A stretch of 64,000 nt of DNA from Streptomyces fulvoviolaceus (GTDB lineage: Bacteria > Actinomycetota > Actinomycetes > Streptomycetales > Streptomycetaceae). Within the stretch, counting starts at the first letter, position 1, and each line of letters begins with the position of its first letter. The stretch is from the NCBI RefSeq assembly GCF_000718165.1, contig NZ_JOEY01000060.1:26989-90988 (forward strand), given 5' to 3'. Both the position numbers and the translations under genes were made by a program. Positions 21,270 to 39,097 of the stretch are shown here, in pieces. A model generated the notes under the pieces. The model was given only the letters and a program-made list of their open reading frames with translations. It did no database searches and was not told the DNA's origin.

Positions 21270-22427
21270 TCAGGCGGTGTGGAGTGTCAGGCCGTAGCGG
21301 CCCAGGATCTCGTTTATGGGCTGGAACCAGGTCTCGCCGCCGCTGCTGCAGTTGCCCCAGCCGCCGGAGGTGACCCCCTGGGCCTGGTCGCCGCTGATGA
21401 ACGAGCCGCCGGAGTCACCGGGTTCGGCGCAGACACTCGTCTTGGTCATCTGACGGACCGCGCCCTGGCTGTAGTTGACGGTCTCGTTCATGGCGAGGAC
21501 CGTGCCGCAGTGCCAGTGGGTGGTCGATCCCGAACGGCAGATGGACGCGCCGACGGGAGCGACGTTCGAGCCGCGCACGAGTTGGTCGGAGACGGTGCCC
21601 CAGCCGAGCACGACCGGAACCGTCCACCAGCCGCTGCCCACGTTGACCCAGGCGTAGTCGTTGTCCGGGAACGATGAGCCCTGGAAGTTGCCGATGTAGC
21701 TTCCGTCCCAGCCGCTGACACCGGCGCCGGCCTGTCCGCAGTGCCCGGCGGTGACGAAGCCGCCGTACACGGAGAAGCCGATCGAGCAGCGGACGTTGCC
21801 GGTGTAGTAGGGGTCGCCGCCGACGGTTCCGGCGGCGAGGGTCGTCGGTGCTCCGGCCGCCTGTTTCACGGTGACGGGGCCCGTCTCACGGGCGCGGGCG
21901 ACGAAGCGTTGGACATCGTTGTCGCTCTGCTTGCCACCGACGATGTTCACGACCACCGTGCTGGCCTTGGGGTCGACGTGCCAGCTGCTGACGCCGTCCG
22001 GGGCCGTGAGCTCGTCGAGTCGCGCCTGGGTGGCGGCGAGTTCGCGGGCGCTGTGCCCGACGGTTCGAACGGTCGCGCCCGTGGCCCGTATCTCCTGGAG
22101 GGTGGCGGCGGACGTGTCCGGGGTGACGCCTACGGTCAGCGTGCCGCTGGAGGCGTCGAACCAGGAACCGCCGAAGGAAGCCCCGGCGGACCGGCGCGCC
22201 TTGGGCTCCAGGGCCGTGGCCCGCTGCTCGGCGGCGAGCCTTGCCTCGGCGTCCTCCTTGGACAGATGGAGGTCCCGCTGCATCGCCGAGAGGAGCCCGG
22301 CGGAGGCGGGTGCGGCGGTAGCGGATGCCTCGTCGGCGGCGGTTGCGGGCAGGGTGCCCGCGGTGACGCCGGCGCCGAGCACGAGCAGCACGGCCAAGCC
22401 CGCGCGTGTGAATCTGGTGCGTCTCAT
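21270..22427 (-). CDS. Secreted S1-family serine protease (streptogrisin/alpha-lytic type)
   Basis: The 385-residue precursor has a signal peptide (about 1-31), an alpha-lytic-type propeptide, and a chymotrypsin-fold mature domain beginning near residue 200. The catalytic triad is His229 (TAGHC), Asp257 (NDYAW) and Ser339 (GDSGG). Cys pairs typical of streptogrisins are visible around NVRCSIG...GHC and SICRSG...HWHC. The propeptide (about 170 residues) should act as a folding chaperone and be removed by self-cleavage. A perfect LacI-type palindrome lies about 54 bp upstream of the start, which is unusual for a protease gene. Confidence 0.93.
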   Translation of the reverse strand: MRRTRFTRAGLAVLLVLGAGVTAGTLPATAADEASATAAPASAGLLSAMQRDLHLSKEDAEARLAAEQRATALEPKARRSAGASFGGSWFDASSGTLTVGVTPDTSAATLQEIRATGATVRTVGHSARELAATQARLDELTAPDGVSSWHVDPKASTVVVNIVGGKQSDNDVQRFVARARETGPVTVKQAAGAPTTLAAGTVGGDPYYTGNVRCSIGFSVYGGFVTAGHCGQAGAGVSGWDGSYIGNFQGSSFPDNDYAWVNVGSGWWTVPVVLGWGTVSDQLVRGSNVAPVGASICRSGSTTHWHCGTVLAMNETVNYSQGAVRQMTKTSVCAEPGDSGGSFISGDQAQGVTSGGWGNCSSGGETWFQPINEILGRYGLTLHTA

Positions 22428-22494: not shown

Positions 22495-22577
22495 GTGTTG
22501 TGGCGCAGCAGAGCCTAGCCGTTGATCATGGACAGGTCCATACCAATGCGCACCCTTGCTTCACACTGGTCCGCCTT

Positions 22578-22893
22578 CTAGCCCGACTCTGTGCCGCTAA
22601 TAAACAAAGCCCGAACGTACAACGCCGTGCCGGGCAACACCCTCACCCGACTCCGCGTCGTCCTCACCGTCTTCTTCGCCCTGGACGGCTTCCCATTCGC
22701 AGGCTGGGTCGTACGCATCCCCGCGATCAAAGAGCAGACCAACGCCTCCGCCAGCACCCTCGGCCTGGCCCTCCTCGGCGTCTCCGCCGGCGCCGTCATC
22801 ACGATGATGCTCACCGGCCGCCTCTGCCGCCGCTACGGCAACCACCAGGTCACCGTCGCCTGCGCCGTCCTCCTCTCCCTCAGCATCGCCCTG
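22578..22893 (+). repeat. Direct repeat copy 1 (5' part of an MFS gene)
   Basis: This segment matches 30165-30480 in the same orientation. The coding part is 303 bp: the first 204 bp differ at 27 positions (about 87% identity) and the final 99 bp are identical. Similarity stops at the same base in both copies. The two copies bracket a 7.3-kb molybdoenzyme block. Confidence 0.85.
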
Positions 22894-22926
22894 CGGCCGC
22901 AGACAGACCGGCGCGCAGACACGTGA
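22591..22926 (+). pseudogene. Truncated MFS transporter (first three membrane segments only)
   Basis: The reading frame opens with GTG and encodes about 101 residues homologous to the N-terminus of the transporter at 30.2 kb (both share IPAIKEQT and GRLCRRYGNHQVTVACAV), then ten unrelated residues and a stop. Only membrane segments 1-3 of a 12-segment transporter remain, so it cannot be functional. The break falls exactly where identity between the two copies ends. Confidence 0.8.
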
Positions 22927-23028
22927 CCCGGGTCTGTCGCAGATGGTCAAGAGCCTGTCGCCTGTTGCCCACCAGTTGGCTGTCGGACCTTCGACGATCG
23001 AGGCAGGAACGATCCGAGGGGAAGACAG

Positions 23029-25173
23029 ATGAGCGCAACAGCGGCGACCGGCACTGTCGTGGTGCAGGGTGCGTGTCCGCACGACTGCCCCGATACCTGC
23101 GCGATGAGAATCACCGTCACGGACGGAAAGGCCGTCAGCGTGACAGGCGACCGGGAGCATCCGTACACCAACGGTGGCCTGTGTGTGAAGGTCGACAACT
23201 ACCTGGACCGGGTGTACAGCCCGGACCGTGTGCTGTACCCGATGCGGCGCACCGGGCCGAAGGGCAGTGGGCGGTTCGAGCGGATCACCTGGGATCAGGC
23301 GCTGGACGAGATCGCGGACCGGTTCCGTGCGATCTCCGCGGAGTTCGGACCCGAAGCCGTCATGCCGTGCAGCTACTTGGGTACCCAGGGAATCCTCAAC
23401 GGGCTCAACGTCGGCGACCCGTTCTTCGCCAGGCTCGGCGCCACCATCGCCGAGCGCACCTACTGCGACTCCGGTTCGTGCACGGCGTACACGATGACGA
23501 TCGGCGACTGCGCGGGTGTGGACCCTGAAAGCCTGGTCCACTCGAAGTTCATCCTGATCTGGGCCTGCAATGTCATGAGCACCAACCTTCACCTGTGGCC
23601 GTTCATCGCCGAAGCCCGCAAGCGGGGCGCCACAGTGGTCGTGGTGGACCCGGTGAAGACCCGTACCGCGCGGGCCGCAGACTGGCACATCCCGATCCGG
23701 CCGGGCACCGATGGAGCTCTCGCGCTGGCGATGATGAACGTGATCATCGAAGAGGGACTCACCGACGACGACTACATCGCCGAATACACGGTCGGCTACG
23801 ACGAACTCGTCGAACGCGTACGGCAGTACACCCCCGAATGGGCCGCCGAGGAGACCGGTGTCCCCGCCGAGGACATCCGCCGGCTCGCCCGCGGCTACGC
23901 CGCCGCGCAGCCGTCGGTGATCCGTATCGGGGTGGCGGTGGAGCGGCACGCCGGCGGTGGCCAGGCCGTCCGGGCGCTGGCCTGTCTGCCCGCGCTGGTC
24001 GGCGCGTGGCGCAACCCCGGTGGCGGGATTCTGCAGTTGCCGCTGTGGGCGTTCCCGGTCAACTGGGGCGCGATGATGCATCCGGAGATGCTGCAGCCCG
24101 GCAAGCGGGTCGTGAACCAGTACCTCCTGGGACAAGCCCTCACCGGCGGCCTCGACCTCGATCCGCCCATCAAGGCGCTGGTCGTGTACAACTCCAACCC
24201 CGTGGTCGTCTGCCCCGATCAGGACAAGCTGATCGAGGGGCTGAAGCGGGAGGACCTGTTCACTGTGGTCAGTGAGCAGTTCATGACCGACACCGCCCAG
24301 TTCGCCGACATCGTGCTGCCCGCCACCACCCAGCTGGAGCAGGACGACATCATGTTCTCCTGGGGCCACCTCTACGTCACCTACAACCACCGCTCGATCA
24401 CACCGCTCGGTGAGGCCGTCCCCAACACGGAGATGTTCCGGCGGCTGGCGGCACGGATGGGCTTCACTGAGCCGGTGTTCCGGCGCACGGACGAGGAGAT
24501 GATCGCGGAGGCGTTCGACTGGTCGGCGCCCGCCATGCAGGGCATCACCCTCGACTCGCTGAAGGAGAAGGGCTGGCAGCGGCTGACCGTGCCGCCCCCG
24601 GACCAGTACGCCCCGTACGCGCAGGGCAACTTCCCCACCCCGTCCGGCAAGGTCGAGCTCAAGTCCTCCATCGCCGAGACCGTCGGGAACTTCGTCGTTC
24701 CGCTGTTCCGGCAGGGCTCCAACGACCACCAGCCCGGCACCCCGGTCGATCCGCTGCCGCACTACGTCCAGCCCCGCGAGTCCGCGCGCACCAACCCCGA
24801 GCTGGCCGCACGGCACCCGCTCAGCCTCATCACCCCGAAGCCGCACGCCTACCTGAACTCCAGCAGCGCCAACCTTCCGATGCACCGGCGCGTGCAGGGG
24901 GAGCCCACCGTCCTCGTCCACCCCGACGACGCCGCCGAGCGCTCCATCGCGACCGGCGACGACGTGCGGGTGTTCAACGACCGCGGCTCGTTCGTGGTCA
25001 AGGCGAAGGTGGACAAGTCCGTCCTGGCGGGCGTCGCCGTGTCGGCGTACGGCGGCTGGCGCATGCACACGAAGTCGCTGTCCACGATGGCGGCCCTGAA
25101 CCCCACCGTCTTCGCCGACCTGGGCAACGCACCCACTTTCTCCGACACCCTCGTCCAGATAGAGAAGGCCTGA
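23029..25173 (+). CDS. Molybdopterin (bis-MGD) oxidoreductase, DMSO reductase superfamily
   Basis: The 714-residue protein carries an N-terminal [4Fe-4S] motif (CPHDCPDTC with a fourth Cys in GGLCVK), domains for two molybdopterin guanine dinucleotides, and a C-terminal dinucleotide-binding domain. By alignment with NapA and formate dehydrogenase the molybdenum ligand is probably Cys146 (TYCDSGS). There is no Tat signal, so it should be cytoplasmic. It is followed after 3 bp by a ferredoxin and then a ferredoxin reductase, suggesting a soluble three-component reductase or dehydrogenase. The substrate is unknown; the assignment to the superfamily is secure. Confidence 0.92.
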   Translation: MSATAATGTVVVQGACPHDCPDTCAMRITVTDGKAVSVTGDREHPYTNGGLCVKVDNYLDRVYSPDRVLYPMRRTGPKGSGRFERITWDQALDEIADRFRAISAEFGPEAVMPCSYLGTQGILNGLNVGDPFFARLGATIAERTYCDSGSCTAYTMTIGDCAGVDPESLVHSKFILIWACNVMSTNLHLWPFIAEARKRGATVVVVDPVKTRTARAADWHIPIRPGTDGALALAMMNVIIEEGLTDDDYIAEYTVGYDELVERVRQYTPEWAAEETGVPAEDIRRLARGYAAAQPSVIRIGVAVERHAGGGQAVRALACLPALVGAWRNPGGGILQLPLWAFPVNWGAMMHPEMLQPGKRVVNQYLLGQALTGGLDLDPPIKALVVYNSNPVVVCPDQDKLIEGLKREDLFTVVSEQFMTDTAQFADIVLPATTQLEQDDIMFSWGHLYVTYNHRSITPLGEAVPNTEMFRRLAARMGFTEPVFRRTDEEMIAEAFDWSAPAMQGITLDSLKEKGWQRLTVPPPDQYAPYAQGNFPTPSGKVELKSSIAETVGNFVVPLFRQGSNDHQPGTPVDPLPHYVQPRESARTNPELAARHPLSLITPKPHAYLNSSSANLPMHRRVQGEPTVLVHPDDAAERSIATGDDVRVFNDRGSFVVKAKVDKSVLAGVAVSAYGGWRMHTKSLSTMAALNPTVFADLGNAPTFSDTLVQIEKA

Positions 25174-25176
25174 CAC

Positions 25177-25503
25177 ATGACGTACGTCGTCACCGATGCC
25201 TGCGCGGACATCCTCGACCAGTCCTGTGTCGAGGAATGCCCGGTGGACTGCATCTACCAAGGGGACCGGATGATGTACATCCACCCCGACGAATGCGTCG
25301 ACTGCGGGAAATGCATGACCGTCTGCCCGAGCGACGCGATCCACTGGGAACACAAAATCCCGGTGGAACTGGCCCCGTTCACCACAGCCGCCGTCGAGTT
25401 CTTCGAGACGCACGAGGACGCGGCCGGTGGTGCGGCCGCGCGCGGACCGGTCGGTGTCGACCATCCCCTGCTGGGGGAAAGGCGCGGCAGTGGTGAGGGC
25501 TGA
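25177..25503 (+). CDS. Two-cluster (3Fe-4S/4Fe-4S) ferredoxin, FdxA-like
   Basis: The 108-residue protein begins [20 protein letters not shown], as in actinobacterial 7Fe ferredoxins. Cysteines occur as C(9), C(17), C(21)P and, in the second motif, [12 protein letters not shown]. The C-terminal tail from about residue 80 is Gly/Ala-rich and overlaps the start of the next gene. It should carry electrons between the molybdoenzyme and the reductase encoded on either side of it. Confidence 0.92.
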
Positions 25504-26485
25504 GACCGAGGGTGCGTACGACAGCGACCTGCTGATCGTCGGCGCCGGGCCGGTCGGTCTCTACGCGGCCTACTACGCCGGGTTCCGCGGCATGTCGGTC
25601 ACGCTGATCGACGCCCTCGACCAGCCCGGTGGCCAGTTGGCGGCGCTGTATCCGGAGAAGAAGGTCTACGACGTCGCCGGATTCCCCGCCGTGAAGGCGC
25701 AGGACCTCGTCGACGCCCTGGTCGAGCAGGCATCGCAGGCAAAGCCCAGGTACCTGCTCGGCCACACCGCGCAGACCCTTGAGGACACCGCGCACGGCAT
25801 CGCCGTCACCACCCACCGGGGCACGGTGGTCACGGCGAAGGCCGTGCTGGTCACCGGCGGAATCGGCAGTTTCACGCCGCGCCCGCTGCCTGCGGGCTCC
25901 GAGTACGAGGACCGCGGCCTGCGCTACTTCGTGCCGAAGCCGGCCGAACTCACCGGCGCCGACGTGGTGATCGTAGGCGGCGGGGACTCCGCGGTGGACT
26001 GGGCGCTGGCGCTCGAACCCCTCGCCCGCACCGTCTCGCTCGTCCACCGCCGGCCCCGCTTCCGCGCGCACGAACACAGTGTGGCGCTGCTGCGCGCCTC
26101 GTCCGTGCGGCTGTACACCCCGCACGAGGTGCATGGCATCAGCGGCGAACCCCGCGTCGAACAGGTGGAGTTGAGGAGCCTGGAGACCGGGGCGACCGAG
26201 AGTCTGCGGGCGGACGCCGTGGTGGCCGCGCTCGGCTTCGTCGCGAACCTCGGCCCGCTCGCGACGTGGGGGCTCGACATGCGGGGCCGGCACATCGTGG
26301 TCGACCGCAGGATGCGCACGAGCCGGCCGGGCGTGTACGCAGCGGGCGACATCGCCGACTACGACGGCAAGGTCGCGCTGATCGCGGTCGGTTTCGGCGA
26401 GGCCGCACTCGCGGTGAACAATCTCGCCCCCCTGGTCGACCCCACGCTGGGCGCGGTGCCGGGACACTCCAGCGACGGCCTGTGA
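25493..26485 (+). CDS. Ferredoxin-NADP reductase, thioredoxin-reductase-like
   Basis: The 330-residue flavoprotein has an FAD motif ([18 protein letters not shown]), an NADP motif ([14 protein letters not shown]) and a C-terminal FAD motif ([14 protein letters not shown]). It lacks the redox-active CxxC of thioredoxin reductase. This is the FNR type found in Bacillus, Thermus and actinomycetes. The GTG start, after a GGGGGAAAGG ribosome site, overlaps the ferredoxin gene by 11 bp; a longer in-frame start exists about 66 bp upstream. It probably exchanges electrons between NADP(H) and the neighbouring ferredoxin. Confidence 0.9.
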
Positions 26486-26494
26486 CGCAGGGTC

Positions 26495-27454
26495 CTACGC
26501 CCGGGCCCGCGAGCGGTAGACGGTGGGCGAGGTGCCGTAGGCCTCGCGGAACGCGCGGCTGAACACGGCGAGGTCGGTGAACCCCCAGCGGACGCAGATC
26601 TCGGTGAGGGTGGCGTCGCCTCCCCGGAGCGTCAGCAGGTCACGTCGGCACCGCTCCAGCCGCTGACGCCGGATCACTTGGGACACCGTCTGTCCCCGGC
26701 GGGCGAACATGCGCTGGAGCTGGCGCGTCGACACGAAGTGCGCCTGCGCGACGCGTTCCGGGGACAGGTCCGGATCACCGAGATGCTCGTCGATGTAGGT
26801 GTCGATCTGCCGCAACAGGCCCGCGTGGCGATCAGTGTCGGCACCGAGGCCGTGCGCCTCTGTCGCGATGGTCGCCACCAGATCGCCGATCTCGTCTGCG
26901 ATCCGGGTGGCGCCGCCCTCACTGACGGCCGGCTTCTCGACGAGCAGGTCCGTCAGCATCCTGCTCAGCACGCCGGTGATGCCGCTGGCGCCGTCCAGGG
27001 TCCGGCAGGTGAGCGAGGCCGACTCGCTGTCGCTGAGCTTGATCGTGTCGCGGGGCCAGGTGAAGACGGCGAGGTCCCAGTGGGGAGAGGCGGCATCCGA
27101 ACGCAGCCACCAGTGAAAGGGGCGATCTGTCTCGTAAACGACGAAGTCGCCGGGGCGAAGGGTCGCTTCGTGCCCGTCCTGCGCGGCGCGTGCCTCACCC
27201 CGGCGGACCAGGCAGACCTGGAAGTAGCGCTCGCCGTCGCGCCGCAGCAGTTGCTGCGTGCGGATGACGTCCTGGTCCACGGAGCGGACTCCCGACACCC
27301 TCAGGTGGCCGAGGAAGCCGCTGCGCACGGCACCGTCGAACATGCCGCAGTCCCGTTCGACGTCCACGTCGAGGCTGACGAAATGGTCCCGAAGGAGGTC
27401 CCGCCAGCTCTCCCGCCGACTGGTGATCGTCTCGCTCAACCCCGCCCCTGTCAT
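26495..27454 (-). CDS. AraC-family transcriptional regulator
   Basis: The 319-residue protein has an N-terminal cupin-like sensing domain (residues about 40-200, with LRPGDFVVYETDRPFHW) and a C-terminal double helix-turn-helix of the AraC type (AQAHFVSTRQLQRMFARRG, then EICVRWGFTDLAVFSRAFRE). The arrangement resembles FeaR/NphR-type activators. It converges on the FNR gene with a 9-bp gap and diverges from moaE, so it could activate either the molybdoenzyme or the moa genes. The effector is unknown. Confidence 0.9.
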   Translation of the reverse strand: MTGAGLSETITSRRESWRDLLRDHFVSLDVDVERDCGMFDGAVRSGFLGHLRVSGVRSVDQDVIRTQQLLRRDGERYFQVCLVRRGEARAAQDGHEATLRPGDFVVYETDRPFHWWLRSDAASPHWDLAVFTWPRDTIKLSDSESASLTCRTLDGASGITGVLSRMLTDLLVEKPAVSEGGATRIADEIGDLVATIATEAHGLGADTDRHAGLLRQIDTYIDEHLGDPDLSPERVAQAHFVSTRQLQRMFARRGQTVSQVIRRQRLERCRRDLLTLRGGDATLTEICVRWGFTDLAVFSRAFREAYGTSPTVYRSRARA

Positions 27455-27655
27455 GACCGTACCTCGCTCGAATCCCGTGCCCACCCGGCGTTGGAGGAGT
27501 GCTCGTTCGCGCATTCTTGGGCCATCTCCATAGGCGGATCGTTGTCGCCATGTAAAAAGCCGGAAAACTCCGATTCCGCGGTGCATTCCGTCGCCGCCGG
27601 TCAAATGCCTGTCGCGAAGGCCCCTGTGGTCGCGGGCCCAGGCCCGTGAGGATGA

Positions 27656-28258
27656 ATGCCAGTGCCGAAGATCCAGAATCCGAGGGAACGCATCGTGATT
27701 GCCACCGTGAATGATCAGATCCGCTGTCCGGAAGAACCGGAGGAACGGGGCGAGGACGTCCGAGTGGGCCTCACCCGCGACCGCGTCCCGGTTGCCGAGG
27801 CGATCGAGTGGGTGACCGTGCCGTACTGCGGCGCGGTTGTCACGTTCACCGGCATGGTGCGCGACAGCAACGACGACTTGGCGGGTCGCCGTACCGGGAT
27901 CATCGGGATCGACTACGAGGCGTACGACCGGCACGTCGAACCGCGACTTCGCCAGATCGCCCGCGCCGCCCACGACCGGTGGCCCGCCCTCGGGCGCGTG
28001 GCGTTGTTCCACCGCATCGGGCCGGTGCCGGTCACCGAGGCGAGCGTCCTGGTCGTGGTGTCCGCACCCCACCGCAGCGAGGCGTTCACGGCCGCCCGCT
28101 TCTGCATCGACGTGCTCAAGACGTCCGTTCCGGTGTGGAAGCGTGAACACAGCGGGGACGGCATGAACGGCTGGGTGGCGACCGGGAACCAGATCGACGA
28201 CGTCACCGCCGCGGCGCACCGCTGGGACCTCACCCGGACCCCGGAAAGTGGGGCGTGA
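27656..28258 (+). CDS. moaE: Molybdopterin synthase catalytic subunit MoaE
   Basis: MoaE, with MoaD, inserts the dithiolene sulfurs into precursor Z to give molybdopterin. Visible motifs are CGAVVTFTGMVRD, YEAYDRHVEPRL, HRIGPVPVTEASVLVVVS, the catalytic-lysine segment CIDVLKTSVPVWKRE and the C-terminal W. An N-terminal extension of about 45 residues precedes the family domain; a GTG at 27695 behind a GAGGGA ribosome site is an equally likely start. It diverges from the AraC gene and its stop overlaps the start of moaA. Confidence 0.93.
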   Translation: MPVPKIQNPRERIVIATVNDQIRCPEEPEERGEDVRVGLTRDRVPVAEAIEWVTVPYCGAVVTFTGMVRDSNDDLAGRRTGIIGIDYEAYDRHVEPRLRQIARAAHDRWPALGRVALFHRIGPVPVTEASVLVVVSAPHRSEAFTAARFCIDVLKTSVPVWKREHSGDGMNGWVATGNQIDDVTAAAHRWDLTRTPESGA

Positions 28259-29271
28259 TGATCCAGCCTCTCGTCGACCGCCGGTACCGTCACCTGCGCG
28301 ACCTGCGGATCTCCGTCACCGACCGGTGCAACCTCCGCTGCCGGTACTGCATGCCGCGCGAGCACTTCGGCCCGGGACACCCCTACCTGGAGCCCGCCGT
28401 CCTGCTGACCTTCGACGAAATCGCGCGCCTGGCTCGGGTGTTCGCCTCCCTCGGCGTGCGCAAGATCCGGCTCACCGGGGGCGAGCCGCTGCTGCGGCGC
28501 GGCGTCGCGGACCTCGTGACGCAGCTCGCCGCGATACCCGGGCTCGATCTCGCGATGACGACCAACGGTCTGCTGCTGCCGGCTATGGCGGAAGGACTCG
28601 CTGAGGCCGGGCTGCGCCGGGTGACGGTGAGCCTGGACTCGCTCGACGACACCGTGTTCCGGGCCATCGCCGACACGGCGGTTCCGGTGCGCCGGGTCCT
28701 CGACGGGATCGACGCAGCGGCACGCGCCGGCCTGACTCCCGTCAAGGTGAACATGGTGGTGAAGCGGGGAGTCAACGACGGGTGCGTGCTGCCGATGGTC
28801 GAGCGGTTCCGGGGCAGCGGCCACATCGTCCGCTTCATCGAGTACATGGACGTGGGGGCCACAAACGAATGGCAGCTCGGTGAGGTGCTGCCCGCCGCCG
28901 AGATCGTGCGCCTGATCGACGACCGTCACCCGCTCGAACCGCTCGGCGCGACCGCCGCCGGCGAGGTGGCCACCCGCTACCGCTACAGGGACGGCGCCGG
29001 GGAGATCGGTGTCATCGGCTCGGTGACGCGGCCGTTCTGCGGGGACTGCACGCGAGCCCGGTTGTCAGCCGACGGAAAGGTGCACACGTGCCTGTTCTCC
29101 TCCGGCGGGACCGACCTGCGGGCATTGCTGCGAGCAGGCGCCTCCGACGAGGAACTGCACTCGGCCGTCCGCGCACTCTGGGGCGCCCGGGAGGACCGCT
29201 ATTCGGAGTTGCGCGGGCGCCGCACACGATCGAGCAGCGATCGGGTGGAGATGTCCTACATCGGCGGATGA
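28258..29271 (+). CDS. moaA: GTP 3',8-cyclase MoaA (radical SAM)
   Basis: The 337-residue enzyme starts molybdenum cofactor synthesis by cyclising GTP with a 5'-deoxyadenosyl radical. The SAM cluster motif is CNLRCRYC (Cys24, 28, 31), LTGGEPLLRR follows, and the C-terminal substrate-binding cluster is FCGDCTRAR...HTCLF. The last residues are the conserved GG. A GTG one codon upstream overlaps the moaE stop. MoaC, its usual partner, is not encoded in this window and must be elsewhere. Confidence 0.96.
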   Translation: MIQPLVDRRYRHLRDLRISVTDRCNLRCRYCMPREHFGPGHPYLEPAVLLTFDEIARLARVFASLGVRKIRLTGGEPLLRRGVADLVTQLAAIPGLDLAMTTNGLLLPAMAEGLAEAGLRRVTVSLDSLDDTVFRAIADTAVPVRRVLDGIDAAARAGLTPVKVNMVVKRGVNDGCVLPMVERFRGSGHIVRFIEYMDVGATNEWQLGEVLPAAEIVRLIDDRHPLEPLGATAAGEVATRYRYRDGAGEIGVIGSVTRPFCGDCTRARLSADGKVHTCLFSSGGTDLRALLRAGASDEELHSAVRALWGAREDRYSELRGRRTRSSSDRVEMSYIGG

Positions 29272-29296
29272 CCTGGACCGAAAGGTGGATCGGCTC

Positions 29297-29542
29297 ATGC
29301 CCACCATGCTTCTGTTCGCGACCGCGCGGGATGCGGCAGGCCGAGCGTGCGACATGATCCCCGGCAGCACACTCGGCGAGGTGCTCGACGAGGCACTACG
29401 GCGCTACGGCGCCGAGTTCGCCCAAGTGCTGGCGAACTCCCGGGTGTGGCTCAACGGAGAGATGTTGTACGACGACATGCGCGGCGCACCGTGCGAGGCA
29501 GACGACGAGATCGCCGTGCTGCCACCGATCAGCGGCGGATGA
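29297..29542 (+). CDS. moaD: Molybdopterin synthase sulfur carrier subunit MoaD
   Basis: This 81-residue ubiquitin-fold protein ends in the essential double glycine (ISGG) that is adenylated and thiocarboxylated before sulfur transfer to MoaE-bound precursor Z. ATARDAAGRA near the N-terminus and VLPPISGG at the end are typical. An in-frame GTG 12 bp upstream is an alternative start. It lies 25 bp downstream of moaA. Confidence 0.93.
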   Translation: MPTMLLFATARDAAGRACDMIPGSTLGEVLDEALRRYGAEFAQVLANSRVWLNGEMLYDDMRGAPCEADDEIAVLPPISGG

Positions 29543-29581
29543 TCAGCGCCGCGTCTCCCGAAACGAGGACAGGTACCTGCA

Positions 29582-30070
29582 GTGAGCAGCGCCATGGGCA
29601 CCCCGACCTGTGAAACCACCGTTCAGAATCGCGTTGCAGAGGTAATGGTCACTTGCCCCAAAACCTTGGAGCCGGACTCAAGGGTGGAAGACCTCCGATC
29701 CCTTTTCGACGACGACCACGTCCACATGGCCCTTGTCGTCGCCGCCGACGGACGGCTCATCACGACAATCGAGCGACCCGACATCCACGAAGCCGCCTCG
29801 CATTCCGCGGCAGTCACAGAGTTCGGGACTCTCGTCGGCAGAACGGTGCCGGCGTCGTACCCGCTCGATGCCGCGACATCAGCGATGAAAAATAAGGCGC
29901 GACGCCGGTTGGCGGTGGTCGATGATTTCGGTCGACTACTGGGGCTGCTCTGCCTGAAGCGAGACGGAAACGGCTACTGCTCGAACGAGGGGATCCGCGC
30001 CCGTGCCCACAGCGCCGGAGTCCACCCACCGCAGGTGGTCGCCGTGAGCGACCCAGGCCCTGGCACGTGA
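29582..30070 (+). CDS. CBS-domain pair protein
   Basis: The 162-residue protein holds two CBS motifs, about residues 17-75 (VAEVMVTCPKTLEPDSRVED, HMALVVAADGRL) and 85-135 (VPASYPLDAATSAMKNKARR, AVVDDFGRLLGLL). Paired CBS domains bind adenine nucleotides and sense energy state. The GTG start lacks a strong ribosome site. It is the last gene before the downstream direct repeat and follows moaD by 39 bp, so it may be part of the moa transcript. The role is unknown. Confidence 0.78.
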   Translation: MSSAMGTPTCETTVQNRVAEVMVTCPKTLEPDSRVEDLRSLFDDDHVHMALVVAADGRLITTIERPDIHEAASHSAAVTEFGTLVGRTVPASYPLDAATSAMKNKARRRLAVVDDFGRLLGLLCLKRDGNGYCSNEGIRARAHSAGVHPPQVVAVSDPGPGT

Positions 30071-30164
30071 AGCCGAAGGACGTAGGCGATCGCACTCAGG
30101 CACAGCGCCGCATCGGCCGCGACCCACGGTTCGGCCAACTCCTTGCCCTCTCCGTCGCACGCAC

Positions 30165-30480
30165 CTAGCCTGACTTTGTGCCGCCAATAAACAAAACCCG
30201 AACGCACAACGCCGTGCCGGGCAACACCCTCACCCAACTCCGCATCGCGCTGACCACCTTCTTCGCCCTCGACGGCTTCATCTTCGCCGACTGGGTCGTC
30301 CGCATCCCCGCCATCAAGGAACAGACAGGCGCCTCCGCCACCACCCTGGGCCTCGCCCTCCTCGGCGTCTCCGCCGGCGCTGTCATCACGATGATGCTCA
30401 CCGGCCGCCTCTGCCGCCGCTACGGCAACCACCAGGTCACCGTCGCCTGCGCCGTCCTCCTCTCCCTCAGCATCGCCCTG
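30165..30480 (+). repeat. Direct repeat copy 2 (5' part of an MFS gene)
   Basis: Same-orientation partner of 22578-22893. The final 99 bp (30382-30480) are identical to 22795-22893, after a stretch of about 87% identity. Such a sharp step in similarity suggests recent recombination or gene conversion in the 3' part of the repeat. Confidence 0.85.
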
Positions 30481-31206
30481 GGCGCCGGGCTCGGCGGCCT
30501 TGTCGCCGGGACGCTGTCTCCCACGCAACACCTGCTCGGCCTCGCCGGGATCGGCCTGCTCGTCACCGCCCTCGCGTGCCGTAGCCTGCTGCGCCTCCAG
30601 CCTCCGGCTCCGCCGGAGAGCGCACCTCGGGACAAGCCCGCACAGCACCGGCTGAGCCCCCGTACCCGCGGTCTCGTGATCACCTTCGGGCTGATCGCCC
30701 TGTGCACCGCCTACGGCGAGGGAGCTCTGGCCGACTGGGGCGCGCTGCACCTGGAACAGGACCTGCACGCCACACCGGGCGTCGCGGCCGTCGGCTACTC
30801 CTGTTTCGCGCTCGCCATGACCATCGGCCGACTGACCGGCACCCAGCTGCTCGAACGCCTGGGCCAGACCCGCACGTTGGTGGTCGGCGGCACGACCGCC
30901 GCGCTCGGCATGCTGCTCGCCGCGCTCGCGCCCGCCCTGTGGGTCGCCCTCCTCGGCTTCGTCATCACCGGGCTCGGTCTCGCCAACCTGTTCCCCGTCG
31001 CCGTCGAACGCGCCGGCGCCCTGGCCGGCCCCGACGGAGTCGCGATCGCGTCCACGCTCGGCTACGGCGGCATGCTCCTGGGGCCACCCGCCATCGGGTT
31101 CATGGCGGACTGGTTCTCCCTTCCCACCGCCCTCACCAGCGTGGCGGCACTGGCTGCGGCGGCCGTGGCCATCGCGTTCACCACGCGACGTGCGGCAGCG
31201 CACTGA
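30178..31206 (+). CDS. MFS transporter with apparent internal deletion of segments 4-5
   Basis: The 342-residue protein resembles the YbjJ-like branch of the MFS (RIPAIKEQTGASATTLGLAL, GRLCRRYGNH). The C-terminal half has six hydrophobic segments, but the N-terminal half has only four before the central loop RLQPPAPPESAPRDKPAQ. After segment 3 the sequence passes directly from SLSIAL to GAGLGGLVAG, where relatives carry about 60 more residues including segments 4-5. The junction coincides with the end of the 99-bp identity to the truncated copy upstream. The frame is kept, but transport activity is doubtful. Confidence 0.75.
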   Translation: MPPINKTRTHNAVPGNTLTQLRIALTTFFALDGFIFADWVVRIPAIKEQTGASATTLGLALLGVSAGAVITMMLTGRLCRRYGNHQVTVACAVLLSLSIALGAGLGGLVAGTLSPTQHLLGLAGIGLLVTALACRSLLRLQPPAPPESAPRDKPAQHRLSPRTRGLVITFGLIALCTAYGEGALADWGALHLEQDLHATPGVAAVGYSCFALAMTIGRLTGTQLLERLGQTRTLVVGGTTAALGMLLAALAPALWVALLGFVITGLGLANLFPVAVERAGALAGPDGVAIASTLGYGGMLLGPPAIGFMADWFSLPTALTSVAALAAAAVAIAFTTRRAAAH

Positions 31207-31207
31207 T

Positions 31208-31604
31208 CGCACGTCCCTCCGGTCCGGGACTCCGCTGGGCGGTTCGCAGCGTGTCGACCAGCAACATGGCGATGGTCGTGGGGCCCACCCCGCCGGGGAC
31301 GGGCGTGACGCGACCGCCCGATGCCGTCGAGTTCTTCGGAACGGACGTCGCCGGCCAGGCCCGAGGGCGTCCGACGGATGCCTTTATCGATGACGACGGC
31401 GCCGGGCCTGGCGTGTTGGGGGCCGATGAGCCCGCGGACACCGGTGGTGACCACGACGATGTCGGCGGGCCGGGTGACCGCGGCGAGGTCGGTGGGGAAC
31501 TCGTGGGCCACCGACACTGTCGCCCCGCGCCGCAGCAGCAGGTGCGTCAGGGGCTTGCCGACGAGCTCTCCCCGGCCGACCAGCCCTGTGGGCGTTCTCG
31601 CTAG
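31208..31604 (-). pseudogene. folD: Decayed folD fragment (methylenetetrahydrofolate dehydrogenase/cyclohydrolase)
   Basis: The antisense strand encodes recognisable FolD pieces: TPTGLVGRGELVGKPLTHLL, ADIVVVTTGVRGLIG, PGAVVIDKGI and, in a different frame, GRVTPVPGGVGPTTIAMLL. The N-terminal substrate domain is missing, the segment before GR-ELVGKP is shortened, and a frameshift near 31318 separates the final motif. It starts directly after the LysR stop. It cannot make a working enzyme. Confidence 0.8.
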
Positions 31605-32515
31605 TCGGGCACCCGTTCCAGCGCGGCGGCGACGCCGGCCCTGCCGACGACGTCGATGAGTGCCTGGCCGATCACGGAGACGGGCTCGCGCGCCGGGAGG
31701 ACCAGGCCGATCCGCTCGGTGCGGACCGGGCTGACCAGGGCGACGGCGTGCATGCCCGCGGGGACGCCGAAGACGTGCAGCCAGGCGTGCGGCACGATGC
31801 TCGCCCACTGACCGGCCCTGACCTGTGCGAACAGGGAGGCGATCGAGTCGGTCTCCACGCGCGGGGTCACGGAGACGCCCACCTCCTCGAACACCGCGTC
31901 GAGGACCTGGCGCCCCTGCATCATCGGGTGCAGCAGGCACAGGGGGTACCGGGCCGCCTCCTCCCAGGAGATGTCGGCGGGGGCGGTAGCCGTGGTGGGC
32001 CGCTGGGTCAGGAGTACATAGCGCTCCCGGTACAGCGGGACGAACTTGAAGTCGTGCGCCGCGACGGAGCTGTGGTAGGTCACGGCGGCGTCGAGTTCGT
32101 ACGTCCGGAGTCTGTTCACGATGTCCTCGGCCCGCAGGTCGGCGAAGACCTGGACGGTCGCCAACGGGTTGGCCGTGCAGAACGGCTGGGTCAGCAGCGC
32201 GACCGCCGTGGCCGCCGTCGGGACGGTCCCGATGCGCAGCCGGCCGCTCAACCCCGCGCGCAGCGCCTGGATCTCGCCCTCCATCGCGTCACGGTCGGCG
32301 AGGATGCGCTGGGCCCACAGGACGACCCGCTCGCCCTCCGGTGTGAGTCCGTCGAACCTGCGCCCCCGCTGGACCAAGGGGATGCCGAGCTCTTCCTCCA
32401 GCTTCCGGATGCCCTCGGACAGGGCCGGCTGGGAGACGTAGCAGGCCTGCGCCGCCTTGGCGAAGTGGCGGGCGCGGGCGAGCGCGACGAGGTACTCGAG
32501 TTGACGGAGCAGCAC
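31601..32515 (-). CDS. LysR-family transcriptional regulator
   Basis: The 304-residue regulator has the N-terminal winged helix-turn-helix (LLRQLEYLVALARARHFAKA, CYVSQPALSEGIRKLEEELG) and a C-terminal periplasmic-binding-like effector domain. The GTG giving VLLRQLEYLV is chosen by comparison with relatives; another GTG lies 15 bp upstream. It is divergent from the FdhF/YdeP molybdoenzyme gene, the classical position of a LysR activator relative to its target. A perfect palindrome lies between them. Confidence 0.9.
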   Translation of the reverse strand: MLLRQLEYLVALARARHFAKAAQACYVSQPALSEGIRKLEEELGIPLVQRGRRFDGLTPEGERVVLWAQRILADRDAMEGEIQALRAGLSGRLRIGTVPTAATAVALLTQPFCTANPLATVQVFADLRAEDIVNRLRTYELDAAVTYHSSVAAHDFKFVPLYRERYVLLTQRPTTATAPADISWEEAARYPLCLLHPMMQGRQVLDAVFEEVGVSVTPRVETDSIASLFAQVRAGQWASIVPHAWLHVFGVPAGMHAVALVSPVRTERIGLVLPAREPVSVIGQALIDVVGRAGVAAALERVPD

Positions 32516-32580
32516 TCCCCAATGATCCACCGCGCCGGCTGCCCGGGACCGGTGGCCGCGCCGGCGTGATCGGTGCGGCC

Positions 32581-32592
32581 TATCACGTGATA
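32581..32592. promoter_or_regulatory. Palindrome between LysR and molybdoenzyme genes
   Basis: TATCACGTGATA is a perfect 12-bp palindrome of the T-N-A type used by LysR regulators. It lies 65 bp from the LysR start and about 104 bp from the molybdoenzyme start, and is AT-rich relative to its surroundings. Confidence 0.6.
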
Positions 32593-32696
32593 ACAACTTC
32601 CGCTTTGACCTCGCCCGATGTGCTGACGAAGAGTGAGAGGCGAACGGCCGGCGAGACACGTCCCGCCCGCGTGGGACGGAGAGGGCGTGACGCTCG

Positions 32697-35000
32697 ATGC
32701 CTGACATCGACGAACCGGACCAGAACGAGCTGTCCGTGACGGCTCCCAAGACCTGGGCCACCGGCGCGCCCGCGGTCGTGCACGCGTTGCGGTACGCGCT
32801 GAGCCAGACCTCGCCGAAGCGCACCGCGCTGACCCTCCTCAACATCAACCAGGCGAAGGGTTTCGACTGCCCGGGCTGTGCCTGGCCCGAGCCCGCGCCG
32901 GGCCGGCGGCACCGCAACGAGTACTGCGAGAACGGCGCCAAGCACATCGCCGACGAGGCCACCTCGCGCCGGGTGACCGCCGAGTTCTTCCAGCGGTACT
33001 CGGTGGACGAACTGAGCCGTAAGTCCGACTACTGGCTCAACCAGCAGGGCCGGCTGACCGAGCCGATGGTGCTGCGCGAGGGCGCGGACCACTACGAACC
33101 GATCGGCTGGGACGAGGCGTTGGACCTCCTCGCCCGCGAACTGCGCGCCCTGGACCACCCGGACGAGGCGCTCTTCTACACCTCCGGGCGGCTGGCCAAC
33201 GAACCGGCCTTCCTGCTCCAGCTGTTCGCGCGGGCCTTCGGCACCAACAACCTGCCGGACTGCTCCAACATGTGCCACGAGTCCAGCGGTTCGGCGCTGA
33301 CCGAGACCCTGGGCATCGGCAAGGGCAGTGTCAGCCTCGACGACCTCTACAACGCCGACCTCGTCTTCGTCGTAGGACAGAACCCCGGCACCAACCACCC
33401 GCGCATGCTGTCCGCGCTGGAGGAGACCAAGCTCCGCGGTGGCAGTGTCGTCGCCGTCAATCCGCTGCCCGAGGCGGGACTGCTGCGTTTCAAGCATCCG
33501 CAGAAGGCGCGCGGCGTCATCGGCCGCGGCACCGACATCGCCGACCAGTTCCTGCAGATCCGGCCCGGCGGCGACCTCGCCCTGTTCCAGGCGCTGAACC
33601 TGATGCTGGTCGAGGCGGAGGACAAGGAGCCGGGCACCGTCCTGGACCGGGAGTTCATCGAGGCGCACACCACCGGCTACGACGCGTTCGCCGACCACAT
33701 CCGCGACACGACGTCATGGGACGCGGTCCTGCAGGCGACCGGCCTGAGCCGCGACGAGATCGAGCAGGTGCATCAACGCGTCCTGAAGAGCCGCAGCGTC
33801 ATCGTCTGCTGGGCCATGGGTCTGACCCAGCACAAGCACGGCGTGCCCACCATCAGGGAGGTCGTCAACTTCCTTCTGCTGCGCGGCAACATCGGCCGGC
33901 CGGGCGCGGGTGTGTGCCCGGTCCGCGGGCACAGCAACGTGCAGGGCGACCGCACCATGGGCATCTGGGAACGCATGCCCCAGTTGTTCCTGGACCGGCT
34001 GGGCGAGGAGTTCCGGTTCACCGCGCCGACGGCGCACGGCCTGGACTCCGTCGACTCCATCCGGGCCATGCTCGACGGACGGGCCAAGGTCTTCCTCGGC
34101 GTCGCGGGCAACTTCGTGCGGGCCACGCCCGACAGCGACGTCACCGAGCGCGCCATGCGCAACTGCCGTCTGACCGCGCACATTTCGACCAAGCTCAACC
34201 GGTCCCACGCGGTGTGCGGACGGACCGCGCTGATCCTGCCCACGCTCGGCCGCAGCGACCGGGACGTCCAGGCGGGCGGGGAGCAGTTCATGACGGTCGA
34301 GGACTCCATGAGCAAGGTCCACGCCACCCGCGGCAAGCTCGCTCCCGCGTCCGCACACCTCCTGAGCGAGGTGTCCATCATCAGCCGTCTCGCCCGCAAG
34401 GTCCTGGGGTCCGAACCGGACATCCCCTGGACGGACTTCGAGGCCGACTACGACGTCGTCCGCGACCGCATCGCCCAAGTCGTCGACGGGTTCGAGGACT
34501 TCAACGAGCGGGTCCGGCACCCCGGCGGTTTCCGGCTGCCCAATCCGGTCAACGACAAGGTGTTCCGCACGCCCAGCGGGAAGGCCGTGTTCACGGTCAA
34601 CGACTTCACGATGCTCCAGGCGCCCAAGGGCCATCTGGTCCTGCAGACCCTTCGGTCGCACGACCAGTGGAACACCATTCCCTACGCGATGGACGACCGC
34701 TACCGGGGCATCAAGGGCGGTCGGCGCGTCGTCCTCGTGAACGCGGCCGACCTCACCGACCTCGGCCTCGCGGACGGCAGCCTCGTCGACCTGATCAGCG
34801 TCTGGTCCGACGGCTCGGAACGCCGCGCGGACAGCTTCCGCGTGGTCGCCTATCCCACTCCCCCGGGTTCGGCCGCCGCCTACTACCCCGAGACCAATGT
34901 CCTGGTACCGCTCGACAGCGTCGCGGACATCAGCAACACCCCTACGTCGAAGAGCGTGATCGTCCGCCTGGAGCGGGCGGCGGAGCCGGCACCGGCGTGA
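32697..35000 (+). CDS. FdhF/YdeP-family molybdopterin oxidoreductase
   Basis: The 767-residue protein belongs to the formate dehydrogenase H/YdeP family. The cluster motif region is FDCPGCAWPEP with a later Cys in NEYCENGAKH. Cys193 in NMCHESSG is the probable molybdenum ligand, in place of selenocysteine. No Tat signal or membrane segment is visible. YdeP is linked to acid resistance in E. coli, and other members have unproven formate dehydrogenase activity, so the reaction is not settled. It needs the Mo cofactor made with the moa genes about 4 kb upstream and is probably controlled by the divergent LysR protein. Confidence 0.9.
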   Translation: MPDIDEPDQNELSVTAPKTWATGAPAVVHALRYALSQTSPKRTALTLLNINQAKGFDCPGCAWPEPAPGRRHRNEYCENGAKHIADEATSRRVTAEFFQRYSVDELSRKSDYWLNQQGRLTEPMVLREGADHYEPIGWDEALDLLARELRALDHPDEALFYTSGRLANEPAFLLQLFARAFGTNNLPDCSNMCHESSGSALTETLGIGKGSVSLDDLYNADLVFVVGQNPGTNHPRMLSALEETKLRGGSVVAVNPLPEAGLLRFKHPQKARGVIGRGTDIADQFLQIRPGGDLALFQALNLMLVEAEDKEPGTVLDREFIEAHTTGYDAFADHIRDTTSWDAVLQATGLSRDEIEQVHQRVLKSRSVIVCWAMGLTQHKHGVPTIREVVNFLLLRGNIGRPGAGVCPVRGHSNVQGDRTMGIWERMPQLFLDRLGEEFRFTAPTAHGLDSVDSIRAMLDGRAKVFLGVAGNFVRATPDSDVTERAMRNCRLTAHISTKLNRSHAVCGRTALILPTLGRSDRDVQAGGEQFMTVEDSMSKVHATRGKLAPASAHLLSEVSIISRLARKVLGSEPDIPWTDFEADYDVVRDRIAQVVDGFEDFNERVRHPGGFRLPNPVNDKVFRTPSGKAVFTVNDFTMLQAPKGHLVLQTLRSHDQWNTIPYAMDDRYRGIKGGRRVVLVNAADLTDLGLADGSLVDLISVWSDGSERRADSFRVVAYPTPPGSAAAYYPETNVLVPLDSVADISNTPTSKSVIVRLERAAEPAPA

Positions 35001-35097
35001 GGCCGGCTTGGCCTGCGTGACGTGGTCTCCCCTCGTGCGCGGCGGCGGGCAGCATTCCCGCCCACGTCACCTCCCCCGCACGAGGAGCCGCCCCGTC

Positions 35098-35526
35098 ATG
35101 TGCCGCACCACAGAGCTCACCTCCCGGCGGGCGGTCCTGGGCGCCTTCACCGCCTCCGCCGCGGACGGCGCGTTCACCGAGCACCCCCTCGGCCGCGGCG
35201 ACGCGCCCGGGACACGCACCGGCCACTGGGCACTGGCGGCCTCGGACGGCGGCAGGCTCGCCCTCACGTTCCCCGGTTCGGACCGCCCGGAGCGGGACCT
35301 GGAAGTGCTCCACGTCGACGGCGAGGTGCTGAGAGTCCGGGAGTCCGGGAGTCCGGGAGTCCGGAAATATTGCGCCCCTTCGACCGCACTCCATCCGGCA
35401 CACTCGCCCCCATGGAGACACTCGAGTTCATCCAAACCCTGGAGCAGGATGGCCTGTTGCTGGCCGCGGCCGCCGAGGAGGCCGGCACCGACGCCAAGGT
35501 GCCGACCTGCCCGGAGTGGCAGGTGA
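35098..35526 (+). pseudogene. Probable remnant of a Tat-exported protein
   Basis: A GAGGAG site precedes an ATG encoding MCRTTELTSRRAVLGAFTAS, a twin-arginine-like start, and the next 70 residues look protein-like (GHWALAASDGGRLALTFPG, LEVLHVDGEVL). The frame then enters an 8-bp tandem repeat, continues as low-complexity sequence and overlaps the next gene by over 100 bp. The real gene probably ended, or was broken, at the repeat. Without it, the roughly 400-bp gap between the molybdoenzyme and the next gene holds no other coding signal. Confidence 0.35.
35333..35364. repeat. Four tandem copies of GAGTCCGG
   Basis: The 8-bp unit GAGTCCGG is repeated four times without error. Because 8 is not a multiple of 3, a change in copy number would shift the frame of the Tat-like reading frame that runs through it. 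It lies 47 bp before the start of the next gene. Confidence 0.9.
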
Positions 35527-38471: not shown

Positions 38472-39097
38472 GCCAGCACGACGAGTTGGGCCCGGTCCCG
38501 AGCGCCCAGCTTGACCATGGTGCGGCTGACGTGGGTCTTCGCGGTGAGCGGGCTGACGACCAGGCGGCGGGCGATCTCCTCGTTGGACAGGCCGATGCCG
38601 ACCAGGGCCATCACCTCCCGTTCCCGCTCGGTGAGTTCGGCGAGGGCGTCGCCGGTCGCGGGCTCCTTTGACCGAGCCGCGAACTCGGCGATCAGACGGC
38701 GGGTCACACCGGGCGACAGCAGGGCGTCGCCCCCGACCACCGACCGTACGGCGCGCAGGAGTTCCTCCGGCTCGGTGTCCTTGACCAGGAACCCGGAGGC
38801 GCCCGAACGGATCGCCTCGAAGACGTACTCGTCGAGTTCGAAGGTGGTGAGCATGACCACCTTGACCTCATGAAGGGCCACGTCCTCGGTGATGCGCCGG
38901 GTCGCGGCCAGCCCGTCCAGCGTCGGCATCCGGATGTCCATCAGGACGACGTCGGGCCGCAGTTCGCGCACCTTGCGCAGTGCCTCCTCGCCGTCGGAGG
39001 CCTCCCCGGCCACCTCGATGTCGGGCTGCGCGTCGAGCAGCGCCCGGAAGCCGGCCCGCACGAGTGACTGGTCGTCGGCGAGCAGTACGCGGATCAC
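38432..39097 (-). CDS. Two-component response regulator, NarL/LuxR type
   Basis: The 221-residue regulator has a receiver domain (IRVLLADDQSLVRAGF, phosphoacceptor Asp in DVVLMDIRMPT, conserved Lys in FLVKDTEPEE) and a C-terminal LuxR helix-turn-helix (LTEREREVMALVGIGLSNEE, VSPLTAKTHVSRTMVKLGA). Its GTG overlaps the histidine kinase stop by 4 bp, so the pair is translated together. Confidence 0.95.
   Translation of the reverse strand: MIRVLLADDQSLVRAGFRALLDAQPDIEVAGEASDGEEALRKVRELRPDVVLMDIRMPTLDGLAATRRITEDVALHEVKVVMLTTFELDEYVFEAIRSGASGFLVKDTEPEELLRAVRSVVGGDALLSPGVTRRLIAEFAARSKEPATGDALAELTEREREVMALVGIGLSNEEIARRLVVSPLTAKTHVSRTMVKLGARDRAQLVVLAYESGLVRPGWLG

Follow-up and report, generated by a model that had tools for sequence, protein, structure and literature searches.

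The identical repeat end beside a molybdoenzyme island in Streptomyces fulvoviolaceus is very probably an assembly artefact

A 64,000-nucleotide stretch of the Streptomyces fulvoviolaceus draft genome (contig NZ_JOEY01000060.1, positions 26,989 to 90,988; hereafter the window, in whose own numbering all positions are given) carries a 7.1-kb molybdoenzyme island between two copies of the start of an MFS transporter gene. The two MFS heads are diverged at first and then identical over 99 bp, and both stop matching at the same base. Is this end a scar of the recombination that placed the island here, as the original prediction held when it proposed insertion or excision between transporter fragments, or was it written by the assembler? 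We conclude that the 99-bp identical end and the common stop base are very probably assembly artefacts, and that a foreign island is bordered on the left by a truncated MFS head and on the right by an MFS gene that is probably complete.

The repeats and their step in identity are present in the assembly much as predicted. Over the first 216 bp (22579-22794 and 30166-30381) the heads agree at 187 positions (86.6%), in register at a spacing of 7587 bp; over the next 99 bp (22795-22893 and 30382-30480) they agree at 99 of 99, and the match ends in both copies at 22893/30480. The bases that flank the 99-mer differ between the copies, C/T before (22794/30381) and C/G after. No exact direct repeat in the window is longer than this match; the only other one of at least 30 bp is a 30-bp piece of the 99-bp repeat itself, and no inverted exact repeat of at least 30 bp occurs in the same 64 kb. 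We compared the heads among orthologues, using 21 of 38 loci and thus 210 pairs. Mean identity is 83.8% over the 99-bp stretch (maximum 93.9%) and 86.5% over the 216-bp stretch; of the 153 pairs that are 84-90% alike over the 216 bp, none reaches 97% over the 99 bp. The 99-bp DNA is therefore no more conserved than its 216-bp neighbour, and the step exceeds what selection would give.

A 171-bp gap in the right gene, absent from the original prediction, falls at the same base. The transporter gene of relatives aligns to the right copy in two parts that meet at window 30480/30481, and in all 18 aligned loci the relatives have 171 bp more between these parts. A protein record from S. fulvoviolaceus matches the right MFS protein at 328 of its 330 residues and contains another 57, whose single best gap placement is at residue 89, corresponding to window 30480; the right gene is thus short precisely where the 99-bp identity ends. 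Its protein is recorded with 330 amino acids (aa), and every other homologue listed (119, of 4334 found) measures 384-468 aa. As written the gene has 342 codons, and the missing 57 would bring it to 399, a frequent length among the homologues listed. The right copy, previously taken for a transporter fragment, is therefore probably a gene of 399 codons in reality, and we infer that the true left copy, too, is probably longer, by ∼171 bp.

The number 99 recurs at the contig ends of this assembly, a draft of 263 contigs. Among the 60 ends of 30 large contigs, same-direction terminal stretches of at least 20 bp are common to three pairs, of 99, 99, and 25 bp, and the two 99-bp pairs are unrelated to each other; end-to-end overlaps are likewise found in three pairs (53, 89, and 96 bp), none above 99. 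The right end of the window's contig has no exact join with another contig. In a short-read graph, contigs that enter one branching node share exactly the graph overlap, and shorter overlaps cannot be joined. Ends sharing exactly 99 bp, together with end-to-end overlaps that are all shorter, therefore point to a graph overlap of 99, and the different bases before and after the 99-mer give the locus the topology of a branching node. According to PMC9215042, a repeat of at least k-1 bases creates a false edge in a de Bruijn graph. The common stop base, although it stands in the assembly as predicted, is thus very probably not biological, since it coincides with both the 99-bp contig-end overlap and the 171-bp gap.

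The true repeat would then comprise heads ∼87% alike over 216 bp followed by ∼270 identical bp, MFS bases 217-486 as counted from 22579 or 30166. A short-read assembler with an overlap of 99 would have represented these 270 bp by a single node and skipped it when two paths were written, one from the left head into the island and one from the right head into the remainder of the gene; all three oddities, namely the identical 99 bp, the shared stop base, and the 57 codons missing from the right gene, would follow from this one omission. A toy genome of random letters, with 216 diverged bp, 270 identical bp, and a truncated second head, behaves in this way when the shared node is omitted: its longest exact repeat is 99, its left copy enters the island, and its right copy resumes past the lost stretch. 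Contig C213 has exactly 270 bp, the predicted node length; this match in length gives weak support because many neighboring lengths are occupied.

Several points weigh against this origin. Between 254 and 298, 16 of the 45 possible lengths are taken among contigs C202-C222, so that a 270-bp contig is little surprise; the missing MFS stretch was not found in the readable contigs of this genome (best match 70% over 119 bp); and no N stands at either join. The loss of a node by the assembler is an assumption, and the argument is drawn from assembled contigs. Some relatives' alignments to the left copy extend 7-21 bases beyond 22893, which could mean that the MFS copy continues slightly, though homology of this DNA to the island of Streptomyces sp. 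V4I2 from 22897 onward fits the island better than a continued MFS copy. Finally, an approximately unbiased (AU) test does not reject a single clade for the two heads (p-AU 0.228), so that they may be sisters from a duplicate that decayed in place as well as members of two MFS lineages. The heads are too short for their tree to be decided: the two form a group in 0% of 200 bootstrap trees, and over the 216 bp they are 90.7% and 90.3% identical to V4I2 and 86.6% to one another.

The island itself is foreign, with edges that are recombination junctions, as comparison with other genomes supports. Of 392 genomes sampled from the genus, three carry it: G277, G303, and G310, the last probably S. griseorubiginosus MPMI3, since its match coordinates equal those of locus L067. 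A protein search of 150 genomes retrieved its own copy and one 46% relative; protein records add further Streptomyces with 82-94% relatives, and named relatives of the window's genes are mostly Streptomyces. We compared four other carriers, V4I2, G277, G303, and MPMI3, with flanks of 2-14 kb a side. V4I2 and G277 are alike for 183 bp further left than the point at which their homology to the window begins, and that stretch has no counterpart here, so the left edge of the island is cut at this locus; bases have probably been left out by the assembly at this junction. At the right junction, which falls just before the end of the CBS coding sequence, in its final codons, the four carriers remain alike among themselves for 15-45 bp beyond the end of homology to the window.

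If the contig were instead correct, one break at MFS base 315 might have been used twice in a single repair event: a homologous arm would have been extended along the broken end as far as its final base and then ligated to the island, and the same broken end would have been rejoined to the gene remainder with the loss of 171 bp. Double use would explain why both junctions share a stop base and why the 99 bp before it are identical; it suits an identity step that is not due to selection, joins at the same base, and an island edge that is truly cut, and this genome has a Ku gene, end joining in S. ambofaciens being reported to bring insertions at breaks (PMC5869714). We regard it as unlikely, because the tract length would equal the 99-bp contig-end overlap by chance and the 171-bp gap would be in frame by chance, and because a near-identical relative has an intact gene. 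A further alternative, very unlikely in our judgment, is that the MFS head was simply duplicated in tandem or transferred, that gene conversion made the two copies alike at the 3′ end, and that the right gene lost its 171 bp in a separate deletion. Gene conversion does yield identity steps, and the heads differ as orthologues of different species do (86.6%, compared with the mean of 86.5%); but deletion and conversion would have to end on the same base by chance, and the tract to measure 99 by chance.

We give hardly any credence to the idea that a mobile block left or entered through the MFS repeats as a circle. The block is flanked by direct repeats, it is missing in V4I2 between the neighbors that enclose it here, and the earlier statement that no known transposon is involved agrees with the lack of a transposase, recombinase, or integrase among 15 window proteins scanned with Pfam. 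Yet the flanks of the four other carriers contain no copy of this MFS gene, so that the same block bordered by the same repeat was not encountered there; in V4I2 a single contig carries both, the MFS gene at 1.36 Mb and, 2.3 Mb away, the island at 3.68-3.70 Mb. Recombination as such therefore stands, for a foreign block whose edges are junctions, while the transporter fragments do not hold up as its vehicle. A plasmid vehicle also fails, as 198 plasmid records match pieces and none covers 80% of the island. In other genomes the island may travel with tRNA-associated elements: in V4I2 it lies between 81-bp direct repeats (96%; L066 7858-7938 and 17805-17885) with the 3′ part of a tRNA, and in G277 ARAGORN places a whole tRNA-Met(cat) gene directly to its left (L184 10019-10089). 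At E 0.01 nothing in the window matches the V4I2 repeat. The one tRNA that ARAGORN reports there, a tRNA-Leu(aag) at 22141-22236 on the minus strand, lies inside the protease gene and is probably a false call. Loss or circle formation through the repeats is possible, and would be easier than was supposed if the real repeat is identical over ∼270 bp. Purifying selection alone, which the original prediction had itself named as a possible cause of the step, can be dismissed: the 33 residues encoded by the 99-bp stretch are identical in the closest homologues (P0002-P0004), but the 210 orthologue pairs rule it out and the best match of either window copy's 99 bp to any relative is 94.9% (G302).

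Other observations concern the carriers. Right after the CBS gene of MPMI3, L067 15195-15245 resembles by eye the 3′ half of a tRNA-Gly, and ARAGORN does not report it; when this piece was tried as an attachment site, its best match in the window covered 38 bp (79%, E 0.006) and lay at 38522, beyond the block. The molybdoenzyme gene of G303 occurs twice at mirror positions (C1 930812-933059 and 10607769-10610016 of 11540835), which suggests terminal inverted repeats of more than 0.9 Mb. Beside the V4I2 island (L066 8609-9309), the list of open reading frames (ORFs) has two small overlapping genes that we presume to be a VapBC-type pair.

The surroundings of the island can be read against relatives that share the region. 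In V4I2 the protease gene and the gene at window 35375 are ∼30 bp apart, with the block not between them, and the intact MFS gene (406 codons) lies ∼2.1 kb off on the other side of the protease; the window stretch 22549-35365 is thus extra here. The spacing from the MFS gene to the gene at window 35376 was compared in eight other relatives: the latter follows after 0.1-1.2 kb in four (G011, G040, G022, and G009) and 6 kb away in G007, a later piece of the region comes 7 kb on in G032, and in G014 and G068 the region is outside the stretch compared. The 15 kb between protease and MFS gene in G011 match scattered places of the genome to which the window belongs, not this locus. To the right of the MFS gene, a second insertion is a patchwork in which the closest relative differs for each part: its folD remnant is 88% identical to contig C6:86291 of this same genome, its short scrap 90% to C6:94822, and its LysR and FdhF/YdeP-type pair 90% to G242. 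Gene scraps at the edges fit repeated end-joining captures. Next to the protease, V4I2 has only a remnant of a GH92 gene (L162 10915-11600), whose window counterpart is full length.

The gene content listed earlier, from molybdoenzyme to CBS protein, is borne out by Pfam and NCBIfam (Table 1). For the molybdoenzyme, which is of the bis-molybdopterin guanine dinucleotide (bis-MGD) type, none of the 25 NCBIfam models shown reaches its cut-off. Among solved structures its best match is acetylene hydratase 2e7z (E 1e-64), followed by the formate dehydrogenase-like FdhF (5e-58); acetylene hydratase is only the best match in that set and assigns no function, and a literature search for it brought up no relevant title. 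The flavoprotein beside the ferredoxin gene is a probable ferredoxin reductase. Near 30071-30160, on the minus strand, the ORF list offers a possible excisionase remnant. Both MFS copies retain a promoter-like pair (TTGC.., 17 bases, TAGCC.) that by eye is common to the 21 orthologous loci shown, with small changes. One record, P0124 of Pseudofrankia sp. BMG5.36, combines MFS and molybdopterin domains in 944 aa under the name MFS transporter.

Table 1. Features in and around the molybdoenzyme island, in window coordinates
Feature	Position	Strand	Remarks
Alpha-lytic-type protease gene, left neighbor	21270-22427	-	Pfam Pro_Al_protease; orthologous region in G011 and V4I2
Left MFS copy, truncated	22556-22893	+	Promoter-like pair and first 303 gene bases
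Left promoter-like pair	22556-22561, 22579-22584		TTGCTT, TAGCCC; by eye from alignment
99-bp exact repeat, left copy	22795-22893	+	Read as one assembly-graph node
Junction J1, MFS head/island	22893-22897		Window homology to V4I2 and G277 begins at 22897
Foreign molybdoenzyme island, 7.1 kb	22894 to ~30008		
bis-MGD molybdoenzyme, 714 aa	23029-25173	+	Pfam Molybdopterin, Molydop_binding, Molybdop_Fe4S4
FdxA-type ferredoxin	25177-25503	+	NF045480 above cut-off
Thioredoxin-reductase-like flavoprotein	25493-26485	+	Pfam Pyr_redox_2; TIGR01292 below cut-off
AraC-type regulator	26495-27454	-	Pfam HTH_18, AraC_binding_2
moaE	27656-28258	+	Pfam MoaE
moaA	28255-29271	+	TIGR02666 above cut-off
moaD	29285-29542	+	Pfam ThiS; MoaD models below cut-off
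CBS protein	29582-30070	+	Pfam CBS; final codons unlike all four other carriers
Junction J2, island right edge	30006-30010		Homology ends at 30006 (V4I2, G277, G303) or 30010 (MPMI3)
Right MFS gene	30143-31206	+	Written 57 codons short at 30480/30481
Right promoter-like pair	30143-30148, 30166-30171		TTGCCC, TAGCCT; by eye from alignment
99-bp exact repeat, right copy	30382-30480	+	
Second insertion	31207-35365		folD remnant, LysR gene, FdhF/YdeP-type gene, short scrap

The locus thus illustrates in detail how the assembly of short reads can produce what convincingly resembles a recombination scar: the identical tract has the length of the graph overlap, the stop base is common to both copies, and the gap in the gene is in frame. 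Checking the contig-end overlap length is cheap and can be applied to any such finding. The biology that remains, a rare molybdoenzyme island with differing surroundings in different Streptomyces, looks ordinary, and the 99-bp end does not look like the trace of a new route for moving genes. Should the contig after all be correct, the locus would be an unusually clear break-repair footprint, showing repair driving gene capture in Streptomyces.

How the truncated head came to adjoin the island is a guess that we would back about as readily as its opposite. A chromosome end carrying one MFS version may have paired by homology with another version, copied ∼270 bp (bases 217-486), and come off, and the freed end may then have been fused, without homology, to the left edge of an island that stood upstream of the intact gene; the junction would perhaps be the product of one-sided homologous plus end-joining recombination. 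This history rests on the identity step, the cut island edge, and the foreign island, whereas the donor, the recipient, and the order of events are conjecture; a donor with the island beside this MFS gene was found in none of the four carriers.

Among known systems, tRNA-associated genomic islands resemble this one in that the molybdoenzyme unit adjoins tRNA sequence in V4I2 and G277, but the window has neither a copy of the V4I2 repeat nor an integrase among the scanned proteins. For S. ambofaciens, PMC5869714 reports five insertions at healed breaks, ranging from 30 bp to 18.8 kb. The present locus likewise has foreign stretches and gene scraps without shared flanks, and the genome a Ku gene, the difference being that the S. 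ambofaciens inserts came from its own genome and the island here is foreign. Homology-facilitated illegitimate recombination (HFIR), as defined in PMC3240628, was described for natural transformation and E. coli conjugation. Like HFIR, the locus has a homologous tract on one side (the step at MFS base 216/217 from 86.6% to 100%, not common to orthologues) and, at J1, an island edge cut at 22893-22897 and apparently joined without homology, where bases are probably missing. A collapsed repeat in a de Bruijn-graph assembly usually breaks the contig, whereas here both paths were written without Ns; the likeness lies in an exact identity that equals the contig-end overlap of this assembly, two differing bases on each side, and a gene that is short at the same base.

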